DNA of 64,000 bases. It comes from Natronosalvus caseinilyticus (GTDB lineage Archaea > Halobacteriota > Halobacteria > Halobacteriales > Natrialbaceae). Below the pieces are notes generated by a model. The model made no database searches. It had not been told where the DNA came from and was given only the letters and a program-made list of their open reading frames with translations. The translations under genes and the position numbers were made by a program. Numbering within the stretch: the first letter of the stretch is position 1; each line of letters opens with the position of its first letter. Positions 49,523-64,000 of this stretch are shown one piece after another. Location: the NCBI RefSeq assembly GCF_017357105.1, contig NZ_CP071596.1:124001-188000 (forward strand), written 5' to 3'.

Positions 49523-50566
49523 ATGACGTTTCACCGGATTGCCCTCGGAAACACCGTCTTCGAGGGAGCCAATAACGCGTATCTGTTCAACGGCGAGGCG
49601 ACCGTCCTGCTCGATACGGGCGTCGCCGTCCCGGACACTCGGGCCGAACTCGAGGCGGGTCTTCGCGAACTGGAGGTCGAATTTGCGGACGTCGATGCAA
49701 TCGTCCTCACTCACTACCACGCCGACCATATTGGCCTCGCCGGTGAGATCCAGGCCGAGAGCGGGGCGACCGTCCACGCTCACGCCGCCGACGCGCCGCT
49801 GATCGCCCACGACGAGGACGCCTGGGACGACCTCGAGGCCCGCCAGCGACAACTGTTCGCGGACTGGGGCATGCCGAGTGACGCTCGCGAGGAACTCCTC
49901 GGGTTTCTCGACGCCGGCGAGGGAATGGGAATCTACGGTGAGCCAGTCGACGTGACGCCGTTCGAGGACGGCGACCACCTCTCGTTCGGCGACCTGGCGC
50001 TCGAGGTTCGTCACGCACCCGGACACACGGCCGGCCTGAGCTGTTTCGTCCCGGCCGACGCACCCGACGAGGTCTACACCGGCGACGCCCTCCTCCCCGA
50101 GTACACCCCGAACGTCGGCGGCGCGGACGTCCGTCTCGAGGATGCGCTCTCGGCGTACGTGGGGACGCTCGAGACGCTGCTCGAGGCCGATTACTCGCGC
50201 GCCTGGCCGGGTCACCGCGAGCCGATCGACGACCCCGCAGCACGCGCCCGCTACATCCTGACTCACCACGAGGAGCGCGCCTACCGAGTCGCAAACGTGC
50301 TGGCCGACGCCGGCTCCGCAGACGCCTGGACGGTCAGCGCTCGTCTCTTCGGCGACCTCGCGGACATCCACATCCTCCACGGGCCTGGCGAGGCGTACGC
50401 CCACCTCGAGCACCTGCGCGAACACGGCGCCGTGACGGTCGACCACGAAATGGGCGGAGGTGACGGCGATACCGCGAGCGTCCGCTACCGACTCACGGAC
50501 GACGGGCGGTCCCGACTCGAGTCCCTGACCGACGGCCGGTGGCCGCTCTCGGACGCCGTCCGCTAA
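49523..50566 (+). CDS. MBL-fold metallo-hydrolase
   Basis: The 347-residue protein is a metallo-beta-lactamase-fold hydrolase with LTHYHADHIGLAGE near residue 61, HAPGHTAGLSC near 165 and VYTGDALLP near 185, and a late WPGHREPIDDPAARA near 230. The C-terminal 90 residues include a winged-helix-like region (VSARLFGDLADIHILHGPGEAYAHLEHL). It resembles the glyoxalase-II-like hydrolases with an additional C-terminal domain seen in bacteria and archaea (some act on acyl- or glutathione-type thioesters). The substrate is unknown. Confidence 0.9.
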   Translation: MTFHRIALGNTVFEGANNAYLFNGEATVLLDTGVAVPDTRAELEAGLRELEVEFADVDAIVLTHYHADHIGLAGEIQAESGATVHAHAADAPLIAHDEDAWDDLEARQRQLFADWGMPSDAREELLGFLDAGEGMGIYGEPVDVTPFEDGDHLSFGDLALEVRHAPGHTAGLSCFVPADAPDEVYTGDALLPEYTPNVGGADVRLEDALSAYVGTLETLLEADYSRAWPGHREPIDDPAARARYILTHHEERAYRVANVLADAGSADAWTVSARLFGDLADIHILHGPGEAYAHLEHLREHGAVTVDHEMGGGDGDTASVRYRLTDDGRSRLESLTDGRWPLSDAVR

Positions 50567-50714
50567 CCTCACATCCCACCCCGGTCTGGACGAGCGTCCG
50601 ACGCGTGAGTAGGGTCGAACTGATCGCGTCACACCTCGATGGAAACCAGCACGAACTAGCTGGAGCCACCGCTTACCGGGTAGCGGTCGATAAAATGATA
50701 GTCAGTGGCGTTCC

Positions 50715-50882
50715 TTACAGGTCGCGGGGCTGGACCGTCTTCCGGTCGTTGTCTTCGGCACGTCGGGCAGCGTCCTCGAGCAGCTCGGACACTTCCTCGT
50801 CGAGTGCTTCGTAGAAGTCCGAAGCGACGTTCTTGTCATCGAGTGCTTCCTTTACGGCGGCTTTGACGATAAGGTCTGCCAT
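50715..50882 (-). CDS. DUF1931-type small histone-fold protein
   Basis: The 55-residue acidic protein begins LIVKAAVKEALDDKNVASDFYEAL and ends AEDNDRKTVQPRDL, the pattern of the DUF1931 histone-like family. The sequence matches one histone fold (three helices). A TATA element (50909-50916) is centred 30 bases before the ATG at 50882, so a leaderless transcript is expected. It may bind DNA or act as a chromatin-associated factor; this is inference from the fold. It is the last ordinary core gene before the tRNA fragment. Confidence 0.85.
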   Translation of the reverse strand: MADLIVKAAVKEALDDKNVASDFYEALDEEVSELLEDAARRAEDNDRKTVQPRDL

Positions 50883-51470
50883 ACAGAATACCCGTTCCCG
50901 TTTCCCTACTATAAAGGTTCTGTTTGTGAGCGGCGAATTCGGGCTCGAGCGGCCCGATAGACCGTCTTTACGCACACCACCCACCAGAAAGTATATGTCG
51001 AAGGAAGTTCCGGCGGGCGCTGGACCCCCTCGAATCGGCCCAAACTGCCCTCGAACGCGCTCGCGCGCGCTCTCGAGACGACCTATCGGTATCCCAGCCG
51101 AAGAAGGGTGGCCCCGTTCACCGCGTTCGTACGACCTCGGGGTGACCCTGCCGTCGACGGCGGACCGCATCGACAAGGCACAGAGGCGGCAAGACGACGT
51201 TCCAAGCGACAGTCGGAACCCGGGATTGATCGGGAACGATGCGCTGTTCGCGGGTTGGTTCGACCTGGTCGGGAACTCGATGCTCCTATACGCGACGATA
51301 TCGGTTCGCGAAACCGATTCGGAGGTCGGCTGGATCGTCGGCAGTATCATTCAGCTGGCTCAGAATCGAACGACCGACGAATCGCTCATAGCACTGGACA
51401 GCGGCTATCGGGGTCGTTATCTACGAACTGAAGGAGAATTCACTCGTTCGAGAAGTACCAACGCGAGAAG
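50883..51470. other. Mostly unassigned intergenic region before the att site
   Basis: The DUF1931 promoter (TATA 50909-50916) lies at the left end. A weak frame (50995-51477, plus strand, 160 codons) opens at ATG 50995, but its first half is low-complexity and it runs into the tRNA fragment. Its C-terminal half (SMLLYATISVRETDSEVGW) is more protein-like and could be a remnant. I do not call it a gene. Confidence 0.4.
50909..50916 (-). promoter_or_regulatory. TATA element of the DUF1931 gene
   Basis: ACTATAAA on the plus strand (TTTATAGT on the coding strand) is centred 30 bases before the ATG at 50882. Confidence 0.6.
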
Positions 51471-51517
51471 AGCCTAGGCCGGGATTTGAACCCGGGCTCT
51501 CGTCCTTACCAAGGACT
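51471..51517 (-). pseudogene. 3' half of tRNA-Thr(GGT); likely att site of an integrative element
   Basis: Reading the minus strand, this fragment contains an anticodon arm with loop TTGGTAA (anticodon GGT), a five-base variable region, a perfect T arm (CCGGG, TTCAAAT, CCCGG), the seven bases CCTAGGC of the acceptor 3' strand and discriminator T. The 5' acceptor strand (GCCTAGG) and the D arm that should precede it do not occur upstream, and no intron explains this: the sequence that follows at 51518 onward does not contain a 5' half. Such 3'-tRNA copies mark the far end of elements that integrate into tRNA genes. Confidence 0.8.
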
Positions 51518-51840
51518 TCTTCGAGATCGCCTCAAACCGGCAACTTCACGGCCACTATCGCCGGTTCTCGACCTGACTCGTACCTTCTCATCCCGAAATA
51601 ACTACACGGACCTATAAGTAAGCGATGATACACTCTCGGGAGCCACAGGAACACGTACCGGAAGATAACCTACAGAACCAGCCGTAGCCGCTGAAACTAA
51701 TATTACCGACTGGTCTTGGTCAGTTCGAGGCTTGACGAGCACTTGTCGAAAAGCGGGGTACTCCCCAGTACAGGAATGGGTACTGTCTCATGAGCATACA
51801 GCTAAGTAATATATCCCTGGATAAGTAAACCGGTAAACAA
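51518..51840. other. Gene-free left end of the island
   Basis: There is no coding frame. The right end holds a TATA-like element (TAATATAT, 51807-51814) that serves the 499-residue gene. A possible hairpin with arms ACCGGC and GCCGGT (51537-51566) lies next to the att fragment. Confidence 0.5.
51807..51814 (+). promoter_or_regulatory. TATA element of the 499-residue island protein
   Basis: TAATATAT is centred 30 bases before the ATG at 51841. Confidence 0.55.
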
Positions 51841-53340
51841 ATGAAACAGCGAGATGTCGTATTGTTCGCTCTCTACGCTCTTCTTGGGATGCTGGTTTTC
51901 GTTACGCGATTACTGACTCTCCCACTCGAAGTAACAGCATTGATTGCTCTCATCGCGGCTGTAAGTGTCCCTACAGCCCACCGGGTAGAAAACATCTACA
52001 AACGTAGGCGTGATCAGCAAGCCCACCGAAAGCGTATCTCTGAACTGGTGAGCCGTGTAAATGAACGTGCCTCCGAGATTGGTCTTCAAATAGTGGATCA
52101 AGGCGAGATCATCGACACCTTGGTCAAGGATGACGAGGAACCGACGCTCGAAAAGATATATGAGAGTTACATTTACGAGCGTTTCGGAGAGCTACCAGAC
52201 TATCAGCAGGAGATTCTCCTTATCCTTCTCCTTTCGCGCGAGGTTGACTCAAGTAAACGCCCTATCGAGCAAGCACGGTTGAAAACACAGATTGCATCGC
52301 TATTGTCGGATTTCAATCTTGGTTCCCTCGATCCGCGAACCATTGAGTTACTGGGCGCATACGACAAGATTGAGCATAAAGGAATAGAACGGACGGAGGT
52401 TACAGCACTATTCGACCACGAGCCAGAGAATCCCCGTGATTTGGCCTTAGAGTTCGCTACTGACTATGGGACTACTGACCAACTTGCGATTGTCCTGTTC
52501 AATGATCGCGAGCGTTCAACTGAACTCAGGAAAACACTGGGTCGTCTAATCGCCCGTGGGAAGATCGACACTGAGACGGTCAACCGTGAGACCGCTGAAC
52601 GAATCAAAGACGAGATGGAACAGATCGGAGATGATGCCACGAAGTATCTGGTTTTCTCCAGGAGAATGCACTATGATGATGCTTTCGAGGAGGCTATAGA
52701 CCGATTCCCACACTTGCGTATTGGTACGAAATACCCCGAAAATGGGTTTCCTGATGCCGCGGAGTATATGCGGGTCTATATGATCTATCCAGAGCACGAC
52801 TATGGAAGTGCCGATCGCTTCTTAGAGGAAGCACTGAAGCCAATGGTGTCTGAGGAAATCCTCGATGAACACCAAGATGCATTTGTTGCCGTGATGCCGC
52901 TCGAACTTTCGAGGCTATCAATCTATCCTGAACACGAAAACGTTGACGAGCACCTGTCGGGGACCCACGAAGCACTGATGTTCCTGAAAACAGGCGCAAG
53001 CGAGGATCTATCAGAAGTCGTCTCAGACCGCGTTGTGAGTGACGTGGGCATCTCGGAACTACTGGCCGTTCTCCCCTTCAATGTCATTACACCCGACATC
53101 AACGAACATGAGAAGGAACTAATCATAGAGCACTACGACGAACTCCAAGATCGATTTGGTGTATCTGAGCTGTTCGATTGGGCGGATATTAATCCCGAAG
53201 ACTTGGGGAATGCCCTTGCTGAAATCGATAACGATGTAGAAGATGAACGGTGGGAAGAACTTGCTGAGACGATTGTGGAGAGAGCTGAGAAATATTCAAC
53301 CGCGACTTACGGTGAGGAGCCAACCTCTGTCTCTCGATAA
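51841..53340 (+). CDS. Membrane-anchored protein of unknown function
   Basis: The 499-residue protein starts with two hydrophobic stretches (VVLFALYALLGMLVFVTRLL and VTALIALIAAVSVPTA, residues about 6-48), then a basic/charged coiled-coil-like segment (about 52-85), and a long soluble part that is mostly helical and acidic. No nuclease, ATPase or phosphatase motif is visible. Its internal pattern (repeated helices with DIGISELLAVLPFNV-type hydrophobic segments) is compatible with a helical-repeat scaffold. The codon use is AT-richer than the core. I cannot assign a family. Its position at the element's edge makes it an accessory gene. Confidence 0.85.
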   Translation: MKQRDVVLFALYALLGMLVFVTRLLTLPLEVTALIALIAAVSVPTAHRVENIYKRRRDQQAHRKRISELVSRVNERASEIGLQIVDQGEIIDTLVKDDEEPTLEKIYESYIYERFGELPDYQQEILLILLLSREVDSSKRPIEQARLKTQIASLLSDFNLGSLDPRTIELLGAYDKIEHKGIERTEVTALFDHEPENPRDLALEFATDYGTTDQLAIVLFNDRERSTELRKTLGRLIARGKIDTETVNRETAERIKDEMEQIGDDATKYLVFSRRMHYDDAFEEAIDRFPHLRIGTKYPENGFPDAAEYMRVYMIYPEHDYGSADRFLEEALKPMVSEEILDEHQDAFVAVMPLELSRLSIYPEHENVDEHLSGTHEALMFLKTGASEDLSEVVSDRVVSDVGISELLAVLPFNVITPDINEHEKELIIEHYDELQDRFGVSELFDWADINPEDLGNALAEIDNDVEDERWEELAETIVERAEKYSTATYGEEPTSVSR

Positions 53341-53360: not shown

Positions 53361-53867
53361 CTAACTGACGATAGATTCGCTGTCGGGGATCGGTTCCAGC
53401 GCGGAAACAGGCACCAGATAGTTGTAATGGCCAAACTTCGATTTTGTTCGGTCTCTATCGAGGACCGTCTCTTTCGTCGCCGCCCCTAAGAACGTCACCG
53501 TAGTGCCGTCCAGATGCCCGAGGACATAATAATCAGAGTTGACGCGGCCTTCCTTCACCGGTAAGGCGTACGGCTCCTTCTGGCTCGTCTTAACATCAAC
53601 TGTCCGCTCAACCCCATCAATAGAGACCTCAAAATCCACGCCCTCGTCCGTCCACCCAACGAGTTCAGTATTGATCTGAAGATCAGCATAGATGGCAAAC
53701 GCCATCTCACCCATAAGTCCAACCTCATGCCGGTCCTCAGGATTCACACCCCAGGTCTCCGACTCGTTATCCCAATCCACGTATTCTTCGAACGACTGGT
53801 TTCGCTCCTTCGCGATTTCACGGACCTGTCGAACATATCGGGGAGGTATATCTACAGAGACCGTCAT
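53361..53867 (-). CDS. PD-(D/E)XK nuclease-like protein
   Basis: From the ATG at 53867 the protein has 168 residues. A helical N-terminus (IPPRYVRQVREIAKERNQSF) precedes the nuclease-like core: Glu54 in GLMGEMAFAIY, Asp78 in DEGVDFEV, and Asp91-x-Lys93 in TVDVKTS. This spacing of E, D and DxK after a beta-hairpin is the PD-(D/E)XK superfamily arrangement. Members cleave DNA or RNA. A longer frame (start at 53924) adds 19 residues. It converges with the 499-residue gene, ending 20 bases beyond that gene's stop. It may be a solo restriction or nicking enzyme. Confidence 0.75.
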   Translation of the reverse strand: MTVSVDIPPRYVRQVREIAKERNQSFEEYVDWDNESETWGVNPEDRHEVGLMGEMAFAIYADLQINTELVGWTDEGVDFEVSIDGVERTVDVKTSQKEPYALPVKEGRVNSDYYVLGHLDGTTVTFLGAATKETVLDRDRTKSKFGHYNYLVPVSALEPIPDSESIVS

Positions 53868-54007
53868 CCGTGAATCCCGGCCCCCGTTCGGAAGCTCGTG
53901 AGTTCCTTGAGGACCATATACCAACTCACGCTGAACGTCATATCTGCGAAGAGGTGGTCGGAGACCAAAACCGTGAGGGACGCCCAGTTTCGAGTTCAGA
54001 CGACCGC

Positions 54008-54599: not shown

Positions 54600-55604
54600 A
54601 TGGTCCGTTACGATCATCTTGATGTCCATTTCCTCAATGTCGGTCACGGCGACTGTACGATCATTCACCACCCGAAGAGCGAGAAGCGCAAGGAGGGAAG
54701 GGTGTCAATCATCGATATTAACGATTGGGATCATCTAAAGCCAGAAGAGACGGATCAGTTTATTGCCGGTCTGAGCTCATACTTACAACAACAGTCCTCA
54801 TCTGGATATTTTGAGAAGCAAATCTCAGAAGAAGAGTACGCAGAAGAGTATCTCGATGATCCAGTGGAGTATTATCAAGAAGCCTTCTCAGGTCTGAAAA
54901 ACAAGGTTTGGCGTTTCATCTCTACTCACCCAGATATGGATCACCTCGCTGGTTTGAAACAGTTTCACGAGGAGATCGGGTTCGATGTTATGTGGGATAC
55001 GCCCCACTCAAAAGAGATGGATACTGGTGATGGATGGTACGAAAAGTTCAATCGAGAAGATTGGTATCGATATGAAGCAATCCGAGGCGGAGAAACGGAT
55101 GTGAACAATATCAACCCCAGAAGAGAATCTCAAAAGAACTTCTGGGAACAGGACAATATACAGATACTACACCCATCGCACTCGTTTGTCGAGGAGATTG
55201 ATGAACAGTCGTCGGGATATAATGATGCCAGCTATGTGCTGAAACTCACTCACGGAAATCAAGCGATGCTGTTACCTGGTGATATAGAAGAAGACGCTTG
55301 GGAAGAGATACTTGACTACTGGGGACCAGACGTGTTGTCAGATGTGAATATCTTAAAAGCATCTCATCACGGCCGGAAGAGCGGTTTCCATCGCGAAGCG
55401 ATCGAAGAAATGGACCCAGATTTAGTTGTGGTTAGTGTCGGCAACAAGGACGAAAGCGATGGATACGGCCTCTATTGGGATGCTTGTGGTGATGACACCA
55501 ATATAATATCCACACGTCAGTATGGGACTGTAAGAGCCGTTTCAACCGGTAGAAGAACAATGGTTAGTTGTGCCGAGCCAGACGGGATCTTTGACTTACC
55601 CTGA
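54600..55604 (+). CDS. ComEC-like MBL-fold hydrolase
   Basis: The 334-residue protein is a metallo-beta-lactamase-fold protein of the ComEC/Rec2 group. It starts LDVHFLNVGHGDCTII (the common FxxVGxGDxxxI opening). The metal motif is THPDMDHLAG with His110, Asp112, Asp114 and His115, followed by LPGDIEEDAWEE near 227 and LKASHHGRKSGFH near 255. The ComEC family includes phosphodiesterase/nuclease-like domains. Here the domain stands alone without a transporter part. It is 2 bases upstream of a membrane protein gene, so the pair is one operon. The AT-rich codon use is clear. Confidence 0.88.
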   Translation: MVRYDHLDVHFLNVGHGDCTIIHHPKSEKRKEGRVSIIDINDWDHLKPEETDQFIAGLSSYLQQQSSSGYFEKQISEEEYAEEYLDDPVEYYQEAFSGLKNKVWRFISTHPDMDHLAGLKQFHEEIGFDVMWDTPHSKEMDTGDGWYEKFNREDWYRYEAIRGGETDVNNINPRRESQKNFWEQDNIQILHPSHSFVEEIDEQSSGYNDASYVLKLTHGNQAMLLPGDIEEDAWEEILDYWGPDVLSDVNILKASHHGRKSGFHREAIEEMDPDLVVVSVGNKDESDGYGLYWDACGDDTNIISTRQYGTVRAVSTGRRTMVSCAEPDGIFDLP

Positions 55605-55606
55605 CT

Positions 55607-56299
55607 ATGGTCCAGAGTCAGTTTTCAGCATACGATTTTATCGCAGATATTACACCAGGAGCTGTAGCCATCGGGCTGTCACTTACTCTGCTTCCAGAGG
55701 GTCATTTCATTCTCGATGAGGCTCAAGAAGTGGGTGTTGCTGCTGGGCTTACGTTTGTTATTTTTGCATATGTGGTTGGACACTTGATCCAGGCCATCGC
55801 AAGTCCGATTGACACCTACTGGGCTAAATATAGAGGATTTGCGTATCCATTTGAGAACGAACTTTCAGGAGAGGATTCAGATTCTTCATCCGATGATGAG
55901 GGCTCTCTTGATCAAGTATCGGTGAATGAAAAGTTCACTTCTGAGGTTGAGTCCCATTTCTCGGGCGAGTTTAGTAATACAGATATCTTTTTTCTCACCC
56001 AAAGTCGTCTCTGGAACGAGGATATTGGTCGTATGCGACGATTCCAAGTTCTCTACACGTTCTTCCGAAGTCTATGGGTAGTTTTCGCGATCGGTACAGT
56101 TCTTCACGTCTTGATACTCGTTGCGAAGTGGTTTGAATATTACAACTCGTTCTTGGGGACAGAGGATTCGATAGTTCTGATTTCAGGACTTACCGTTGCG
56201 GCACTTTTGGCTTACTATCGACGGAAAAAGATGCATAAAAAGATGGCCAAAACGATGGTTATTGATTTCTATGCTAATATCCTTGTAAAAGAAGACTGA
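55607..56299 (+). CDS. Multi-pass membrane protein, operon partner of the MBL protein
   Basis: The 230-residue protein has about four hydrophobic helices: two near the N-terminus (ITPGAVAIGLSLTLLP near 16; GVAAGLTFVIFAYVVGHLI near 43), two in the second half (FFRSLWVVFAIGTVLHVLILVAKWF near 153; IVLISGLTVAALLAYY near 188), and a Ser/Asp/Glu-rich loop at about 88-105. Its basic end carries RRKKMHKKMAKTM. I do not recognise a family. The start is 2 bases after the MBL stop, and an obligate functional pair is plausible. Confidence 0.8.
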   Translation: MVQSQFSAYDFIADITPGAVAIGLSLTLLPEGHFILDEAQEVGVAAGLTFVIFAYVVGHLIQAIASPIDTYWAKYRGFAYPFENELSGEDSDSSSDDEGSLDQVSVNEKFTSEVESHFSGEFSNTDIFFLTQSRLWNEDIGRMRRFQVLYTFFRSLWVVFAIGTVLHVLILVAKWFEYYNSFLGTEDSIVLISGLTVAALLAYYRRKKMHKKMAKTMVIDFYANILVKED

Positions 56300-56453: not shown

Positions 56454-56879
56454 ATGGAGATCGGACTCGTGAGCTGTACGAAGAGTAAACGCGAGCAAGC
56501 CGCAGAACCCGCTGACCTCTATATTCCGTCGACGTTCTTCAGTAAGGCGCGTGAGTACGTCGAAGCCAACCACGACCGCTGGTATATCCTTTCCGCGAAA
56601 CACCATCTACTCGATCCGTCTGGGCCACCTATCGAGCCATACGATGAAACACTAACTGGCGCACCAGTCGCCCGGAAGCGGGAGTGGGCCGAAGTAGTAT
56701 ACGTTCAGCTCCAGGAGCAAGGTCTTCTCGACGCCGGCAATCGACTGGTGTTTCACGCGGGACGAGACTACTACAGCGAACTCATCCCGTTGCTGGACGA
56801 CACGCCAGTCGAGGTGGAAACCCCTACTGATGGCCTTCTGTTCGGCGAGACGCTCTCGTGGTACAACGAACACCTCTGA
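56454..56879 (+). CDS. DUF6884-like protein
   Basis: The 141-residue protein begins with LVSCTKSKR and continues with ADLYIPSTFFSKAREYVE, RWYILSAKHHLLDP and the PYDETLTG segment. This is the pattern I associate with the DUF6884 family, short cytosolic proteins of unknown biochemical function often near DNA-modification or nuclease genes. The Cys/Lys at the start and the His pair suggest a catalytic site, but none is established. It lies 42 bases before the GIY-YIG-like gene on the same strand. Confidence 0.7.
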   Translation: MEIGLVSCTKSKREQAAEPADLYIPSTFFSKAREYVEANHDRWYILSAKHHLLDPSGPPIEPYDETLTGAPVARKREWAEVVYVQLQEQGLLDAGNRLVFHAGRDYYSELIPLLDDTPVEVETPTDGLLFGETLSWYNEHL

Positions 56880-56921
56880 AAATCCCGAGCAATTTTATGT
56901 CCCACCTCTGAAGGGAGTGGT

Positions 56922-57632
56922 ATGTCGCGTCGCTCAGATCTCGATAACCTCTATGAGCTCCTCGACCGTCTCGAAGCAAACGTAGGCGGTAAACAACGAC
57001 TCAAGAACTGCACTGGATACATGGATTGGCCGAAGAGAGGCATCTACTTTTTCTTCGCAGACGATGAAAGGCGTGAGTCGACAGACCAGCCCCGGCTCAC
57101 CCGTATCGGCACTCACGCAGTTTCATCCGGCTCCAGCACGTCGTTGTGGAATCGACTCCGGACACATCGTGGAGCGAACAGAGGAACCTACGATGGCGGG
57201 GGAAATCATAGGGGGTCGGTGTTCCGCAAGCGGATCGGCGAAGCTCTGATCGAGCGAGAGGGGTTTCACGACGAATACCCATATTGGGGTAACGGATCCA
57301 GTGCGGATCGAGATCGACGGCTTGCCGAGTTAGAACACGAACGCCGCGTAAGCCAGTACATTCGCGACCTCCCGTTCCTCTGGGTCGACGTCGAAGACGA
57401 GCCCAGCCCGGAGAGTGACCGAGCCTACATCGAGCGGAACGCAATCGCTCTCGTCAGCAACTACCAGAAGGACTCACTCGACCCTCGTGACGACGACTGG
57501 TTGGGACGCGTCAGCCCCCGCCACGAGATTAGCGACTCGGGACTATGGAACATCAACCACGTCGGAGAAGAGTACGACACGGCGTTTCTGGACCGGTTGT
57601 CTGACGCTGTAGAGAAGACATCGGATCCCTGA
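56922..57632 (+). CDS. GIY-YIG-like nuclease-domain protein
   Basis: The 236-residue protein resembles a GIY-YIG domain in its first 100 residues: WPKRGIYFFFAD near 37 (the GIY strand), LTRIGTHAVSSGSSTSLWNRLRTHRG near 56-82 (the YIG-equivalent strand is RIG, followed by the helix with conserved Arg). The rest (about 95-236) is charged, with no recognised domain. GIY-YIG enzymes nick DNA. The downstream Glu normally needed for catalysis could be in FRKRIGEALIERE near 100. It is the last gene inside the 17-bp repeats. Confidence 0.7.
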   Translation: MSRRSDLDNLYELLDRLEANVGGKQRLKNCTGYMDWPKRGIYFFFADDERRESTDQPRLTRIGTHAVSSGSSTSLWNRLRTHRGANRGTYDGGGNHRGSVFRKRIGEALIEREGFHDEYPYWGNGSSADRDRRLAELEHERRVSQYIRDLPFLWVDVEDEPSPESDRAYIERNAIALVSNYQKDSLDPRDDDWLGRVSPRHEISDSGLWNINHVGEEYDTAFLDRLSDAVEKTSDP

Positions 57633-57800: not shown

Positions 57801-58544
57801 TCAGAGAGTCAGAGAGTTCCCGTTTACCCGGAGCCATTCGCGGCGATCCTCGTAATCCGGAATGAGAGCACCAACCGTGTTCCAGAACGCGCCAGAGTGC
57901 TCATTATGTACTGAATGGGCCAACTCATGAGCGATAACGTAATCTTGGATTCGAACGGGTGCCCGGATCAACCGCCAGTTGAGGCGAACGGTTCCGCTGT
58001 CGTATTCACCCCACCGACCGTCGATCTCTCCGACCCATACTGGCACATCGTCGAGCCCCAACCTCGACTCAAAACGCGACACTCGGTTCGGAAGTTCTTC
58101 CTCCGCACGCTCAACAAACCAGTCAACGACAGCTTGGTGCTTTCGACGAACGCTTACGTCGTCTACATCTCCATCGAACCGGTGGACGCGAAGAGTGAAC
58201 GTCTGCTCGTCAAACGATAACCTCGGTTCGGGGACATCCGCCTCAACGGCCTTCAGCGGATACTGTCGTCCCCGATACTGGAGTTTCTCCCCGCTCATGT
58301 ACTCCTTCGGATACGGCGGTCCTTCTTGCTCTTTGAGTCCGTAGAGTTTCTGAAGCAGCCACTCTTGGCGAGACTCAAGCACGTCCTCAACATCTGCTAC
58401 CGTCGCGGTCATCGGGGCTGTAACGGTCAACTCTAAGGACTTGTCGATTGACAGTCCTATTGTCTCCCGATTTTCGGACCAATCGACCGTGTAGGGCACG
58501 ACCGTTTGGCCGATATGATGTCGACGCTGTAGGCGTTCGCTCAT
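57801..58544 (-). CDS. YgjP/M48-type metallopeptidase (restriction-operon associated)
   Basis: The 247-residue protein is a YgjP-like (DUF45) M48-clan peptidase with zinc motif HELAHSVHNEH at about 206-216 and the upstream GRWGEYDSGTVRLNWRLIRAP characteristic of YgjP. The start at 58544 overlaps the hsdR stop by 4 bases, so it is cotranslated with the restriction subunit. YgjP-type genes often sit beside type I restriction genes. A role in turnover or control of the endonuclease is inferred, with ClpXP-like control of HsdR in E. coli as the only known precedent for proteolytic alleviation. Confidence 0.9.
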   Translation of the reverse strand: MSERLQRRHHIGQTVVPYTVDWSENRETIGLSIDKSLELTVTAPMTATVADVEDVLESRQEWLLQKLYGLKEQEGPPYPKEYMSGEKLQYRGRQYPLKAVEADVPEPRLSFDEQTFTLRVHRFDGDVDDVSVRRKHQAVVDWFVERAEEELPNRVSRFESRLGLDDVPVWVGEIDGRWGEYDSGTVRLNWRLIRAPVRIQDYVIAHELAHSVHNEHSGAFWNTVGALIPDYEDRREWLRVNGNSLTL

Positions 58545-61501
58545 TGGTAATGATTTCGCGCGAGTTCGATGACGCGGTTGGTTAGCTCCCGCCGCTCGTC
58601 ACCCGAGATGTCGATATCAGACCGATACAACTCTCCCGTCACTTCCTTCCGCATCCGGTTCTGCAGCTGCGTCTTCTCCTTCCATTCAACCTTCGTCACG
58701 AACTCCTCAACGGTTCCAACTAAGTCAGCGGTGAGCTCGATGAGCTCTTCCTCCTCAGCATCGTGCTTGTCCAGCACGTCTTCAAGGGCGTGATAGAACG
58801 AGAGATCGGTCTCGTCGCGGAGCCCTTTGTTCCGCGCCTGCTTGTCGCGGGAGCGAATCTCGTCCATCAACGCCCGAAGCTCCTCGATAGTCTCGCGCTC
58901 GTCGTATCGCCCTTCTCGGTACTTTTCAATGAGCTCTTCGAGCCGATCTCTGAGAGAACCGTACTGCACTGGATCTTCGTCGAACCGAACGTTGAGCTCG
59001 TGCTTGATTGCATTTTGCATCTCACTCGCCCGAGCTTCGTCGCTTTTTAAGCCTTCAAGTTTCGCGTCGTACTCGACTTCCTCCATAATCGAGACGGGTT
59101 CATCGTTCAAAACCTCGATGCCCCGTGACGTGATGTGGTCCTGAATCAACTCGCGGACCTTTGCTCCCGCCCCTTCGAGGTTCATCGTCTCATCGCGGTA
59201 CCGCTCCTTCGCCTTTCCATAGATCGTGCTGAGACGCTCAAGATCCTCCCGGTAGGGGTTCGCCATGGGATCCGGGAGGACAACGTCCATCAGTTGCGAA
59301 AACCGCTTAAACGCGTTCTTGAACTCGATTCGGCGGTCGTCCGGTTCAAGCGACTGAACGCACTGTTCGACGTCATCGAGATCGTGGAAAAACGAGACCG
59401 CCTTGCTGTGGGCCGCCTCAAGATCAGGCTGTTTGTCCTCGACCGGCACCATCGCCCGCTCGACATCTTTGGAACTGAACATCGCGAGCGCCTCCTTCAA
59501 TTCGTCCGAGACGCCGTAGTAGTCGATGATAAGCCCGTGGGTCTTCTCCTCGAACGGCCGGTTCACACGAGCGATCGCCTGCAACAGGCTGTGCTCCCGT
59601 AGTGGCTTATCGAGGTACATCACCTGAGCCACCGGCGCGTCGAAGCCTGTCAGGAGCATGTCACAGACGATAAGCAGCACAACCTCGCCGTTCGGATCGA
59701 CGAACGATTCCTTGTACTGGCTCTTCTCGGAGTCGCTGGGAGTCCACTTCTTGATGTGTTCAGGGTCATTGTGCCCCTCAGAGATAATGACTCGTGACTC
59801 CGGCCCGTTCAGGTTGTCAAGGGTTTCTTTGTACCGAATCGCCGCCTCCTTGCTTGTGGTGACGACCATGCCCTTGAACGGCTCAGGCACGTCGTTCTCG
59901 TAGTGTTCGATGATGTCCAGTGCGACTCGGTCGATTCGAGGTTGTGCCTCCGCGAGATCTTGCGTGCGGGCGTATCGCTTCTGGATCTCCGCCTTTTCTT
60001 CGTCCGTCTTGTCCGAGAAGATGCGATCGAATAGGCGATCGAGCGTTTCGCCTTCGAGGTGGATGTCGGCAAGACGTCCCTGATACAGGATCTCGACCGT
60101 CGCGCCATCCTCCAGTGACTGATCGATCGTGTACGTGTCAATGTAGTTCCCGAACGTCCGGCGGGTGTTGCGCTCGTCTTTCTCGATGGGGGTTCCGGTG
60201 AACCCAACGTAGAAGGCGTTCGGGAGCGCCGTCCGCATATTGTTCGCGAACTCCTTGTCCTGCGTCCGGTGGGCCTCGTCGGCCATCACGTAGACGTTCT
60301 CGTTACGGGAGAGCACCGGGAAGTCCTCTTCGTCGTCCGTGGTCTGGAACTTGTGAATCAGCGTCGTGATCGTCTCGCCCGCGTCGTACGAGAGCCGATC
60401 GCGGAGATCCTCGATGCTCTCGGCCTTTTTCGGATTTGGGAAGCCACAGCGTTCGAACGTTGCGTGAATCTGGTCGTTGAGCGCCCGGCGGTCCGTGACT
60501 AAGAGAAGTGTCGGGTCGTCCTCGTTTCGGCGCAGCTTCAGCGCGAGAAAGAGCATCGTGAGCGACTTACCGGAGCCCTGGGTGTGCCAGACGACACCGC
60601 CCTGTGCCTCGCGCCGTCCGCGCTTGTCGATCCGTTCGAGTGCCTTCCGGACCGCTCGGTACTGCTGATACCGAGCGACCATCTTGATTGCGCCGCTCTG
60701 TCGGTTCTCGAACACTGTGAAGTGCCGTAACTGGTCAAGCAGGCGCGAGGGCTCGAACAACGCATAGAGCATCCGGTACTGATCCGGGAGATAGTCATCG
60801 AGGTCGAACAGCTCGATTAGTTCGTCGTCTTCCAGCGGGTAGGCGTCCCGCCAGGGCTTGTACTGGTCTTTCGGTGTTCCGTACGTGCCCATAACCGCCC
60901 CCTCCATCCAGGCCGCGACCGAAAACTGGTTGTACCGGAACAGCTCCTCGGCCCCCTCCGACTCTCCGTCGCGTTCGTTTTGATAGCGGGTGAGCTGATC
61001 AAGCGCCTCCGAACGCGGCTCTGGGATCTGGGGACTCTTGCACTCGACGACGCCGAGCGGGATTCCGTTGACGAACAGCACGATATCGGGCTTGACGACC
61101 TCGACCGGTCCCTCAACCCGGAACTGGTTGAGCGCGAAGAAGTCGTTGTTCTCGGGGTTCTGGTAGTCGATGTACTGGACCGTCTGGTGCTGCTTGCCGT
61201 GTCCGCGGTTCTGTTCGACAGAGATGTGGCGGACGAGCTTCTCGTGGATCTGCTCGTTTTCGTCCATCGTGCTCGTCCCAGCGACCTGTGTGATCTTGTG
61301 GACGGCCTTGTTCAGGTTGTTCTCGTTGAGCCACGGATTCAGGCGCTTAACTGCATCGCAAAGACGCGGTTCGAGTACGGCCGAGGACTTCGTCTCCCGA
61401 GGATCGATCCAAGTGGAGCGTTGCTGGTCGACGACCTCCCAACCGAGTTGCTGGAGTGCGTCAAGGGCGGGACGTTCAGACTCGACGTACTCGTTGGGCA
61501 T
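58541..61501 (-). CDS. hsdR: Type I restriction enzyme R subunit
   Basis: HsdR is the ATP-driven translocase and nuclease of the type I complex. The 986-residue protein has an N-terminal PD-(D/E)XK nuclease with Asp139 (KPDIVLFVNG), Glu153 and Lys155 (VVECKSP), then helicase motifs: Walker A HTQGSGKSL (Lys312), DEAH in VMADEAHRTQ near 413, FTGTPIEKDE near 434, motif V-like VCDMLLTGFDAPV near 640 and QAIARVNRP near 676. The C-terminal third is helical (subunit contacts). It overlaps the M48 gene by 4 bases, and 2 bases separate it from hsdS. Confidence 0.97.
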   Translation of the reverse strand: MPNEYVESERPALDALQQLGWEVVDQQRSTWIDPRETKSSAVLEPRLCDAVKRLNPWLNENNLNKAVHKITQVAGTSTMDENEQIHEKLVRHISVEQNRGHGKQHQTVQYIDYQNPENNDFFALNQFRVEGPVEVVKPDIVLFVNGIPLGVVECKSPQIPEPRSEALDQLTRYQNERDGESEGAEELFRYNQFSVAAWMEGAVMGTYGTPKDQYKPWRDAYPLEDDELIELFDLDDYLPDQYRMLYALFEPSRLLDQLRHFTVFENRQSGAIKMVARYQQYRAVRKALERIDKRGRREAQGGVVWHTQGSGKSLTMLFLALKLRRNEDDPTLLLVTDRRALNDQIHATFERCGFPNPKKAESIEDLRDRLSYDAGETITTLIHKFQTTDDEEDFPVLSRNENVYVMADEAHRTQDKEFANNMRTALPNAFYVGFTGTPIEKDERNTRRTFGNYIDTYTIDQSLEDGATVEILYQGRLADIHLEGETLDRLFDRIFSDKTDEEKAEIQKRYARTQDLAEAQPRIDRVALDIIEHYENDVPEPFKGMVVTTSKEAAIRYKETLDNLNGPESRVIISEGHNDPEHIKKWTPSDSEKSQYKESFVDPNGEVVLLIVCDMLLTGFDAPVAQVMYLDKPLREHSLLQAIARVNRPFEEKTHGLIIDYYGVSDELKEALAMFSSKDVERAMVPVEDKQPDLEAAHSKAVSFFHDLDDVEQCVQSLEPDDRRIEFKNAFKRFSQLMDVVLPDPMANPYREDLERLSTIYGKAKERYRDETMNLEGAGAKVRELIQDHITSRGIEVLNDEPVSIMEEVEYDAKLEGLKSDEARASEMQNAIKHELNVRFDEDPVQYGSLRDRLEELIEKYREGRYDERETIEELRALMDEIRSRDKQARNKGLRDETDLSFYHALEDVLDKHDAEEEELIELTADLVGTVEEFVTKVEWKEKTQLQNRMRKEVTGELYRSDIDISGDERRELTNRVIELARNHYQ

Positions 61502-61503
61502 TG

Positions 61504-62805
61504 TTAGTCTGTGTTGACGCGGACTGTGCCGGTGAGGAGATCCTGCATAAGGCCGCGTTTTAGTTCCTGTAAATCCTCTTTCCTACCTTTTTCCTCATCT
61601 ATTTTTTTCTGTGCACATCCAATGATGTTTGCAATTCGTTCTTGTTCTTCCGCTGGGGGAACAGGTAGTTGGAACGCCTCAAAATCCGCCTTGGTAATAT
61701 GGACTTGACCTGCAGACCCTCCAACCATCGTCTTAAGCAATCTTAGGTGTTGGTTTAGTGAAAATGCGAAGAATCGCTTATCCAACTCTTTCTTAGGACG
61801 AAGATTGTAGATGTGTTGATTAAGATATGCATCATCTCCTGACCAAATGTATGCGCCGAGTGAGGTCTTGATATTTCCCGCCCAGCAGAATAGCAAATCT
61901 CCGACTGTGACATGGTACTTGTCGTCTACCTCGAAGTTTGCGTAATTGGTTTCAGCTTCTGCGCCGGGCCGCAGGTCTTGGATTCTAATAATCTGGGTTC
62001 CCTCTTCTTCCCACTCTTCAGTCTTGAAGGCACGCCCATTGATTGCCTCAAATAACTGGCCACAGGGCTCCATATCCCAATGGTCTGGAATCTGTAATGT
62101 TCGAGGGCCAATCTGGATCTCTTGAGTGGAGCCATTAGATAGTCCTCCAATCAAAAGATCTTGCATTAGACCCTGCTTCAACTCCTTCGCCTCCTCGATA
62201 ATTTTATCCGTCTGTTGGATCTGCTCGTCGACCGTCGAGAGGACATCGGCGATTCGGCGCTGTTTGGGGAGTGGTGGGAGTAAGACCTCTGAATTTTTGA
62301 TTTTTGTGACTGTAAGTCGAGAGATTCCGGTCCCACTCATCTTTGACTGCATTACCTTTTTGAATAGCGGCCAGTTGAGATGATGAGTTAAAAAGTCTGG
62401 GTCAAGACGGTCCCGATCAGTCCGAATTAGTGCGACACTCGATAGTAAACTAAACTCGAAATCGAGCGTGTTTTTCCGCGCAATTCCAGTATTTGCTCCG
62501 TCTTTGACGTAGAGAACATCCCCAAGCTGTGGGTCACAGCGAGAGTAGATTTTCTTATGATCTTCTTCGGAAATGTACCCAATATCATCGAGGCGGAACC
62601 CATTCTCGCGGATGTTTTTGGAGGTTATATAAGGGTACCCCTCATCTACCGTATCTGGTGAATTATGTGTCCCATCCGTTATCTTTTGACAAACCGAATT
62701 TGTCTTGACTACTTCCCATTTTTCCGGAATTCTCACCGTCTTTGGGCCTAAATGAATCTCTTTGTACCCCTCTCGAACCTTTGATTTTTCCACAGCCTCG
62801 CTCAT
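61504..62805 (-). CDS. hsdS: Type I restriction enzyme specificity subunit
   Basis: HsdS determines the DNA sequence recognised by both modification and restriction. The 433-residue protein has the standard two-fold layout: each half is a target recognition domain followed by a helical spacer. The first half opens LGPKTVRIPEKWEV and its spacer reads LPKQRRIADVLSTVDEQIQQ (near 180); the second opens IGPRTLQIPDHWDM (near 231) and its spacer reads PAEEQERIANIIGCAQKKID (near 383). Each spacer ends in a LMQDLL-type stretch. GC is lower than in hsdR and hsdM, which is usual for horizontally exchanged specificity genes. The start overlaps hsdM by 4 bases. Confidence 0.96.
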   Translation of the reverse strand: MSEAVEKSKVREGYKEIHLGPKTVRIPEKWEVVKTNSVCQKITDGTHNSPDTVDEGYPYITSKNIRENGFRLDDIGYISEEDHKKIYSRCDPQLGDVLYVKDGANTGIARKNTLDFEFSLLSSVALIRTDRDRLDPDFLTHHLNWPLFKKVMQSKMSGTGISRLTVTKIKNSEVLLPPLPKQRRIADVLSTVDEQIQQTDKIIEEAKELKQGLMQDLLIGGLSNGSTQEIQIGPRTLQIPDHWDMEPCGQLFEAINGRAFKTEEWEEEGTQIIRIQDLRPGAEAETNYANFEVDDKYHVTVGDLLFCWAGNIKTSLGAYIWSGDDAYLNQHIYNLRPKKELDKRFFAFSLNQHLRLLKTMVGGSAGQVHITKADFEAFQLPVPPAEEQERIANIIGCAQKKIDEEKGRKEDLQELKRGLMQDLLTGTVRVNTD

Positions 62806-64000
62806 ACGTACTCCAATTCCTCCATATACCGCTGCAGTTCTTCGTCGGTCTCCCGGCGCTCCTCGGCCAATTTATCCAACTCCTGTAGCCTCTCGCTTAC
62901 GTCGATCGGTTCCTCGGGTTCGGTCGTATCGACGTATCTCGGCACGTTTAGGTTCCAGTCGTTCTCCTCGATTTCCTCAAGGTCAACAAGCCGACTGTGA
63001 TGGTCCTCTTCGCGCCCAGTCAGGAACGTCTCGGCGAGGTACTCAACGCCCTCGTCGGTAAGCTGGTTCTGATTCGAGAGTTCTTCGAACACCTGTACGT
63101 CTGACTCCCGAAGCTTCTGATCCTCGGCGTAGATGAACTGAACTTTATCCCCTCTCTCCTCGGGCTTGTCCTTGTTCAGTATCAGGATACACCCCGGCGA
63201 CGAGGTGTTGTAAAACAGGTTCTCCGGTAGCGCGATCACGGCCTCGACGAGATCGTCCTCCAGGATCGGCTTACGGATTTTCTTCTCCGATCGCGAGCGG
63301 AACAGCACGCCGTTGTCCATGACGACGCCCGCCTTTCCGGTCTCGTTGAGCGAGGCGATCATGAGCTGAATCCACGTCCAGTCGCCGCGGTTCGACGGCG
63401 GGAGTCCGTACGGGAAGCGGTTGTACGGCTCGTTGTCCTCTACCCAGTCCTTGTTCCATTCCTTCTGATTCCACATCGGGTTCGCGATTACCCGATCGAA
63501 CACTTCCAATTCGTCATGCTCGGTGACGCGCTTGGGGTCTGTAATGGTGTCGCCCTTCTCGATCTTTGCGTCGTACAGCTCATGCAGCAGGACGTTCATC
63601 TGGCCGATCGCCCACGTGTTCAGGTTCCTTTCCTGGCCATACAGCGAGAAGTCGTTCATGTCTCCACCCGACTCGCGGATGTGCTCAGCAGAGTAGATGA
63701 GCATCCCCGCTGACCCACAACAGGGGTCGTAGACGCGATGACCCGGTTTAGGGTTGACGCACTTAACGATGAGACGCACGACCGCTCGCGGTGTATAGAA
63801 CTCGCCGCCCTTCTTGCCGGCGTCGTCGGCGAATTTGTTGATGAGGTACTCGTAGGCCCGCCCGAAAATATCGGGGTCCTTGAGGTCGGCATTCCGGTAG
63901 CGATGTTTGTCGAAGTGTGAGACCAAATCCGAGAGCAGAGCGTCCGGGAGACGCTCTTTGTCGTTGAAATCGACTGTGGTGAGCACGCGGTCGGCGATGG
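62802..64000 (-). CDS. hsdM: Type I restriction enzyme methylase subunit, 5' part missing (window edge)
   Basis: HsdM is the N6-adenine methyltransferase subunit. The visible 394+ residues contain FGRAYEYLINKFAD, the SAM-binding DPCCGSAGML and the catalytic NPPF-type motif as NPMWNQKEW, plus ENLFYNTSSPGCILIL. The N-terminal helical domain is outside the window, and the frame is still open at 64000. A GTG at 63986 is only an internal codon. It is the first visible gene of the operon, followed by hsdS (4-base overlap) and hsdR. The replaced motif residues (M-W for P-F) are a common variant in type I enzymes. Confidence 0.95.
   Translation of the reverse strand, partial: IADRVLTTVDFNDKERLPDALLSDLVSHFDKHRYRNADLKDPDIFGRAYEYLINKFADDAGKKGGEFYTPRAVVRLIVKCVNPKPGHRVYDPCCGSAGMLIYSAEHIRESGGDMNDFSLYGQERNLNTWAIGQMNVLLHELYDAKIEKGDTITDPKRVTEHDELEVFDRVIANPMWNQKEWNKDWVEDNEPYNRFPYGLPPSNRGDWTWIQLMIASLNETGKAGVVMDNGVLFRSRSEKKIRKPILEDDLVEAVIALPENLFYNTSSPGCILILNKDKPEERGDKVQFIYAEDQKLRESDVQVFEELSNQNQLTDEGVEYLAETFLTGREEDHHSRLVDLEEIEENDWNLNVPRYVDTTEPEEPIDVSERLQELDKLAEERRETDEELQRYMEELEYV

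Follow-up and report, generated by a model that had tools for sequence, protein, structure and literature searches.

Two adjacent genes of Natronosalvus caseinilyticus, here called A and B, encode proteins that probably act together in detecting and cleaving DNA that is abnormal and may carry viral modifications; related pairs are met repeatedly in archaea, in bacteria and in phages. The pair is already catalogued as the two-gene PADLOC candidate PDC-M57: the genes are adjacent, and both products match with high scores (A to PDC-M57A, E 1.7e-29 over residues 2-140; B to PDC-M57B, E 1.5e-76 over residues 1-234). No paper naming PDC-M57 was found among open-licence papers. From the evidence below we infer, with good support, a two-part nuclease in which A finds the base and B cuts. 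More tentatively, the best explanation, albeit unproven, is a modification-dependent, type IV-like two-component nuclease directed against a foreign base, with the 7-deazaguanine type favoured.

The gene pair lies in a restriction island

The window, i.e. the whole stretch of 64,000 nucleotides that was analysed (contig NZ_CP071596.1, positions 124,001 to 188,000), contains A and B as intact open reading frames (ORFs; Table 1). A first-pass annotation had described two genes on one strand, 42 bases apart, the first DUF6884-like and the second GIY-YIG-like, in a restriction island. Coordinates and gap were confirmed, and so was the setting, with hsdR, hsdS and hsdM occupying 58541-63986 on the opposite strand. 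The ORFs of the island have a GC content of 0.44-0.58, compared with 0.666 over window bases 1-50000. The island begins at about 50000-52000 of the window, where GC drops from ~0.67 to ~0.5. Upstream of A, the MBL-fold ORF and the Csx27/tm_4-like ORF are separated by 2 bases and are likely another defence pair; no type VI-B locus was seen here. Two further ORFs in the island, at 51841-53340 and 53361-53924, were without a convincing family match.

Table 1. Gene pair A-B and neighbouring features (window coordinates)
Feature	Position	Strand	Description
MBL-fold ORF, upstream of A	54600..55604	+	PDC-M48B, E 6.5e-19
Csx27/tm_4-like ORF, upstream of A	55607..56299	+	tm_4, 8.8e-10; Csx27, 1.9e-9
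Gene A	56454..56879	+	141 aa; DUF6884 / PDC-M57A, YaaA-like fold, putative base-recognising subunit
A-B gap	56880..56921	+	42 bases; GAAGGGAG directly ahead of B, possible ribosome-binding site (by eye)
Gene B	56922..57632	+	236 aa; PDC-M57B, GIY-YIG-like fold, RIG replacing YIG
YgjP-like metallopeptidase, downstream	57801..58544	-	PF01863, 2e-43
HsdR, downstream	58541..61501	-	HSDR_N, 9.8e-41
HsdS, downstream	61504..62805	-	Methylase_S, 3.9e-40
HsdM, downstream	62802..63986	-	N6_Mtase, 1.3e-102

Protein A is a DUF6884 protein with a predicted YaaA-like fold

In the Pfam search A matched PF21818 (DUF6884) with an E value of 5.1e-38 and 130.7 bits, far over the curated cut-off of 30, which bears out the DUF6884 label of the first pass. 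An AF2 model of A (21 sequences, pLDDT 96.6) was aligned by VIA-align with E. coli YaaA (5caj; Z 9.5, rmsd 2.8, 125 residues aligned) and with AF0587 (2q07; Z 9.4), the following row reaching Z 6.0. Foldseek alone gave no match to the model at E <= 0.001. The C-terminal half of ArcS from the window's own genome, a protein that contains DUF5591, is aligned with AF0587 at E 5.8e-45, and AF0587 is thus an ArcS relative.

The Pfam authors likewise link DUF6884 with YaaA; they give CxxxK and LSAxxG as its motifs and describe a cleft of positive charge as well as a base flip obtained by modelling (PMC11701544). The CxxxK motif is present in A (C8, K12), and the LSAxxG motif reads LSAKHH, with LSA kept and the final Gly lost. 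Residues C8, K12, Y23, S47, A48, Y63 and Y106 are invariant in 12 aligned partners of B belonging to several types, and the pocket therefore appears to be common to the partner types.

Protein B resembles GIY-YIG nucleases

The first-pass annotation had read RIG in place of YIG in the second gene. The motifs of B are 'RGIYFFF' and 'LTRIGTH', and R61 is invariant in 22 aligned relatives, as are G40, G63, R78, H82, E140 and E171, with Y42 nearly so. From the alignment we take Y42, R78, H82 and E171 to be the GIY Tyr, the catalytic Arg, the helix His and the metal-binding Glu, respectively. The alignment check of the catalytic Arg and Glu that had been proposed thus turned out positive, and so did the reading of RIG. 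Because Arg61 replaces the YIG Tyr, B is classed as GIY-YIG-like and not as a canonical member.

Window B had no Pfam match, so that it is read as GIY-YIG from its fold, register and residues. When the 22 relatives were scanned singly against Pfam, sub-threshold matches were obtained with PF01541 GIY-YIG (five relatives), DUF123 (four), a member of the GIY-YIG clan, and GIY_YIG_2 (two); six other families were matched by one relative each. The best E value was 0.0021, and that for PF01541 was 0.046. An NCBIfam scan of B gave only weak, spurious-looking matches, and PDB sequence searches with B, as a single sequence or as a profile, returned no GIY-YIG entry.

The AF2 model of B (25 sequences, pLDDT 89.5, pTM 0.89) found nothing at E <= 0.001 in Foldseek searches of PDB and BFVD, and no GIY-YIG protein was among the rows listed. 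With VIA-align, nine of 234 chains reached Z 2, and the five entries listed were all GIY-YIG: the UvrC GIY-YIG domain at Z 4.6-4.7 (81-86 residues of the 90-residue domain) and R.Eco29kI at Z 3.6-4.1. These scores (Z 3.6-4.7 overall) are low in absolute terms, and it is the uniformity of the entries, not their height, that suggests a GIY-YIG fold for the model. In hhalign comparisons with two mixed GIY-YIG profiles, the GIY motif and the Arg-helix were aligned in register with probabilities of 49 and 59 percent, the best of 100 shuffles giving 3.7 and 2.2. Against UvrC alone the probability was 1.2, not above that of the shuffles, and against stand-alone GIY-YIG alone it was 0.6, with the wrong register. 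The profile-profile search envisaged in the first pass thus exceeded the shuffles for the two mixed sets among the four profiles and failed with UvrC and stand-alone sequences taken separately. The domain assignment itself likewise held in part: fold (at low Z), register and residues agree with it, and Pfam contributed only sub-threshold matches in relatives. By model and alignment, B is probably a nuclease of GIY-YIG-like type in which Arg has taken the place of the second Tyr throughout; its nuclease activity is predicted, and nicking would be expected from the fold.

Recurrence of the pair and exchange of partners

In the phylum sample, 31 of 392 genomes carry B; a laboratory Haloferax volcanii also has a match. 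For 15 of these 31 genomes a DUF6884 match (E <= 0.01; remnants and fusions counted) was found no more than 500 bp away from B (0.03 expected), and for 18 no more than 4 kb away (0.12 expected); because the 31 genomes are partly related, the Poisson values serve for description only. Among the 15 are remnants with stop codons (G061, G314), fragments (G094), fusions (G155, G070) and one weak match (G203, E 0.0032). The remnants in G061 and G314 stand beside an open B, i.e. the partner decays and B persists.

Seven near-copies at 95 percent identity (L043, L048, L067, L068, L069, L090, L097) were dropped, leaving 61 non-redundant B loci. The partner was adjacent on the same strand in 18, adjacent and divergent in eight, fused in five and within 4 kb in three; 27 loci had none, among them several with a fragmentary B or at a contig end. 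In total, 34 of the 61 loci thus have a partner within 4 kb, or 33 of 60 if L108, which was collected together with A, is excluded. The pairing in other genomes that the first pass had put forward for survey is therefore recurrent, above chance and in some cases a fusion; a universal A-B pair was rejected on account of the 27 loci without a nearby partner.

Same-strand pairs include one on a Deinococcus plasmid (L044) and others on viral contigs. HsdM occurred within 8 kb of B in four of the 31 genomes (0.39 expected); two of the four belong to one family, and the linkage to type I systems is modest. The settings of B are restriction island, plasmid or virus, not a core locus. No match was found when window B and a viral B were compared with 50,697 phage records, or when window B was searched by blastn, at the DNA level only, against E. 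coli genomes. As single-protein queries against viral contigs, window A and window B gave no match, unlike alignment-based scans, by which matches were found.

The partner of B varies and is a co-directional DUF6884 protein, a divergent DpdC-like protein, a YaaA-type protein or a fused domain. In the fusions, B is preceded by DUF6884 (L092, L108) or by a YaaA-type domain (L096), or is followed by the latter (L077, L080). Fused or adjacent partners scored 53.8 (L077), 43.5 (L030), 40.3 (L080) and 32.1 bits (L096) against YaaA (PF03883; cut-off 29.6). Mapped onto a phylogeny of 53 B proteins, the five partner states require 15 changes, the minimum being 4 and the shuffled mean 26.9. Of the six members of the smallest starred clade containing the window's B, three form same-strand pairs with DUF6884, two have a divergent DpdC-like partner and one has no partner; partners have thus been exchanged within close kin. 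Two other arrangements were seen. In L075 (6546-8588) B is part of a fusion protein that also has TPR repeats and a HEPN match, and Haloarcula-type plasmids (L045, L047, L048, L066-L069) combine B with ArdC-like, HNH and DUF6610 genes and encode a DUF6884 protein of 280 aa at 1.4-3.1 kb from B.

On Natrinema and Tolypothrix plasmids, DUF6884 adjoins another kind of protein, built of two GIY-YIG-like units, the spacing being a 14-base overlap and an 8-base gap. One such tandem protein (P0002) scored 29.0 bits against the GIY-YIG cut-off of 22.6; the other (P0001), annotated as GIY-YIG, had no Pfam match at E <= 0.1. Members of this canonical-looking tandem family were found in 21 of 385 genomes. 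Only two of its 26 loci had a DUF6884-type gene inside the 1.5 kb flanks, which counts against the best explanation; DUF6884 is thus combined with GIY-YIG proteins of two families, rarely so with the second. For these two loci (L226, L230), PADLOC had no model for P0001 and gave weak PDC-S14 matches for P0002.

Viral copies and a homing-like alternative

In loci L087, L088, L089, L091 and L093 the A-B pair lies between the capsid ORF and the cement-protein gene; the L098 contig ends inside B. At least 80 viral loci with the cement gene were collected, and 76 of the 80 listed had a recognisable capsid-gene end. Among these 76, the two genes were separated by 69-92 bp without an insert in 67, by the A-B pair in three (two of them near-identical contigs), by an HNH gene in five, and one had a broken ORF call. 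The five HNH carriers (L178, L185, L199, L191, L220) have a 604-612 bp insert ahead of the cement gene, the assignment to HNH_3 coming from a scan of L178 only. At the end of the capsid gene, within its last 15 codon-region bases, all five have four synonymous changes in common, a pattern that would fit a self-protected homing target. An altered target common to the A-B phages was looked for and none was found, only L088, L089 and L087 being closely comparable.

Homing genes adjoining conserved phage genes are well known. Because the pair shares its slot with the HNH gene, there is room for a homing-like or phage-competition role, at least in phages: A would bind DNA, B would cut cassette-free relatives, and the pair would spread or exclude rivals, cellular copies being carried or domesticated. 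As an account of the pair at large this is unlikely, given that the altered capsid target of the HNH carriers is not shared by the A-B phages and that in cells partner type, strand and distance change.

Lesions or modified bases as possible targets

A role in DNA repair or lesion processing is less probable still. Here A would recognise an abasic site, a ribonucleotide or a damaged base, or would excise the base, and B would incise, resembling a small UvrC- or base-excision-like system. UvrC is among the nearest folds of B, SMUG1 and TDG occur among the weaker VIA-align rows of the A model (Z 4.7-4.8, amid many unrelated rows), and YfjM of B. subtilis, a DUF6884 member, has been reported among proteins binding abasic and RNA-base lesions (PMC11701544). 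Against such a role speak the patchy spread of B over 31 of 392 genomes and its location in restriction island, plasmid or virus.

The idea of a modified base, raised in the first pass as a DNA-modification-dependent system, gains a more concrete footing through the kinship of DUF6884 with YaaA and DpdC. Outside the window's group, haloarchaeal B often has a divergent, longer partner, for which the best-matching PADLOC profile is that of DpdC. DpdC profiles matched all eight aligned long partners (seven divergent, L072 co-directional; best 6.5e-16), PDC-M57A matched four of the eight, and the partner in L040 was also at the DUF6884 cut-off (30.8 vs 30 bits). Window A had no match to DpdC profiles at E <= 1, which counts against the best explanation. 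DpdC has been placed in DUF6884 (PMC11888242) or in PF03883 (PMC12839542), and is described as hydrolysing dPreQ0 to dADG in DNA (PMC12839542); preQ0 in tRNA is the substrate of ArcS (PMC11298593). DNA containing 7-deazaguanines occurs in haloarchaeal viruses (PMC8651126), and these bases shield virus DNA, haloarchaeal viruses included, from many restriction enzymes (PMC6884629, PMC8651126). In laboratory E. coli, dpdA and gat-queC of phage 9g give rise to DNA with dPreQ0 or dG+ (PMC6884629). The viral locus L092 (2845-6905) encodes in a row QueC (PF06508, E 3.8e-53), a DUF6884-B fusion, a SIR2-like protein and a nucleoside deoxyribosyltransferase. This row adjoins phage-like genes, and it is the single case of QueC next to the pair.

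A third TGT gene was absent in 15 of the 17 partner-bearing genomes searched (the 18th, G203, was outside the search); the search was made with PF01702, which a divergent DpdA could escape. Each of the 15 has two TGT loci, one full-length and one partial and ArcS-like (ArcS checked for G000). In G000 the two are a full TGT and ArcS, and a third TGT as candidate DpdA is absent. The third TGT of G070 is full-length; in G288 (C2:5066-6695) a third, divergent TGT gene adjoins a DUF6884 match and forms a possible archaeal dpd-like cluster. As 15 of 17 genomes are without a third TGT, self-marking is argued against and host dPreQ0 is an unlikely substrate there. A minimal restriction-modification pair, in which A would alter a host base as self-mark and B cut unmarked DNA, is accordingly improbable. 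In its favour, the CxxxK set is kept in A, and DpdC, to which the divergent partners are similar, is a modification enzyme; but the substrate of DpdC has to be made by a transglycosylase of DpdA type, G288 and G070 being exceptions to this argument.

Proposed mechanism and relation to known systems

In the favoured modification-dependent nuclease, (i) A would bind DNA, and a flipped-out base would enter the pocket formed by CxxxK, SA and the conserved tyrosines, the favoured target being a virus-borne 7-deazaguanine-type base (preQ0, ADG or G+); (ii) B, with its GIY-YIG-like fold and conserved residues, would cut or nick the DNA where A has docked; and (iii) the host would be spared by keeping such bases out of its own DNA. 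A 7-deazaguanine is favoured because of the kinship to DpdC and ArcS, the lack of a third TGT, the existence of modified haloviruses and the precedent of GrwAB. The explanation is supported by pairing far above chance, by the five loci in which A and B form one polypeptide, by the enrichment of HsdM near B and by QueC beside the A-B fusion in L092. It is weakened by the partnerless loci (27 of 61), by LSAKHH in A, by the phage copies in an HNH-type slot, by QueC being a single case, by the modest type I linkage and by a DpdA possibly missed with PF01702.

Each known system shares some features with the pair and differs in others. The PDC-M57A profile of PDC-M57 is not the best one for DpdC-like or YaaA-type partners of B. 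DpdC of the Dpd 7-deazaguanine modification system belongs to the superfamily of A and is matched by the divergent partners of B, whereas window A has no DpdC match and G000 no third TGT. GIY-YIG nucleases (the UvrC N-domain, R.Eco29kI, homing enzymes) have the fold predicted, at low Z, for B and share the positions of Tyr42, Arg78, His82 and Glu171, but B has Arg for the second Tyr and no Pfam match. YaaA (PF03883) and the DUF5591 part of ArcS share the fold of A, and some partners of B exceed the YaaA cut-off, but YaaA and ArcS are not known to pair with a nuclease. Among open-licence papers, DUF6884 is named in two; GIY-YIG and YaaA occur together in a single, unrelated one, on plant iron-sulfur proteins, and DpdC and GIY-YIG in a single review where both stand apart. 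GrwAB, a type IV system of two genes, acts against 7-deazaguanine phages and is proposed to recognise phage 7-deazaguanine (PMC12137116). The A-B pair resembles GrwAB and other GmrSD-like type IV systems in having two genes; these systems, however, combine a DUF262 NTPase with an HNH-type DUF1524, whereas the pair has no NTPase.

A wider view, which we regard as speculative and somewhat doubtful, is that of a widespread, mix-and-match antiviral family. Proteins of the DpdC/YaaA/ArcS type, elsewhere enzymes acting on 7-deazaguanines, would have turned into sensors of these bases in foreign DNA and would have recruited GIY-YIG nucleases on at least two independent occasions (RIG and tandem canonical), in fused, co-directional or divergent arrangement, and archaea might thereby counter haloviruses carrying preQ0 or G+. 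Cellular answers to virus DNA protected by 7-deazaguanines are little known, GrwAB being one case (PMC12137116). If the reading is true, a DpdC-like sensor combined with a GIY-YIG nuclease would be a second answer, unrelated to GrwAB, and functions would be assigned to DUF6884 and to the candidate PDC-M57.
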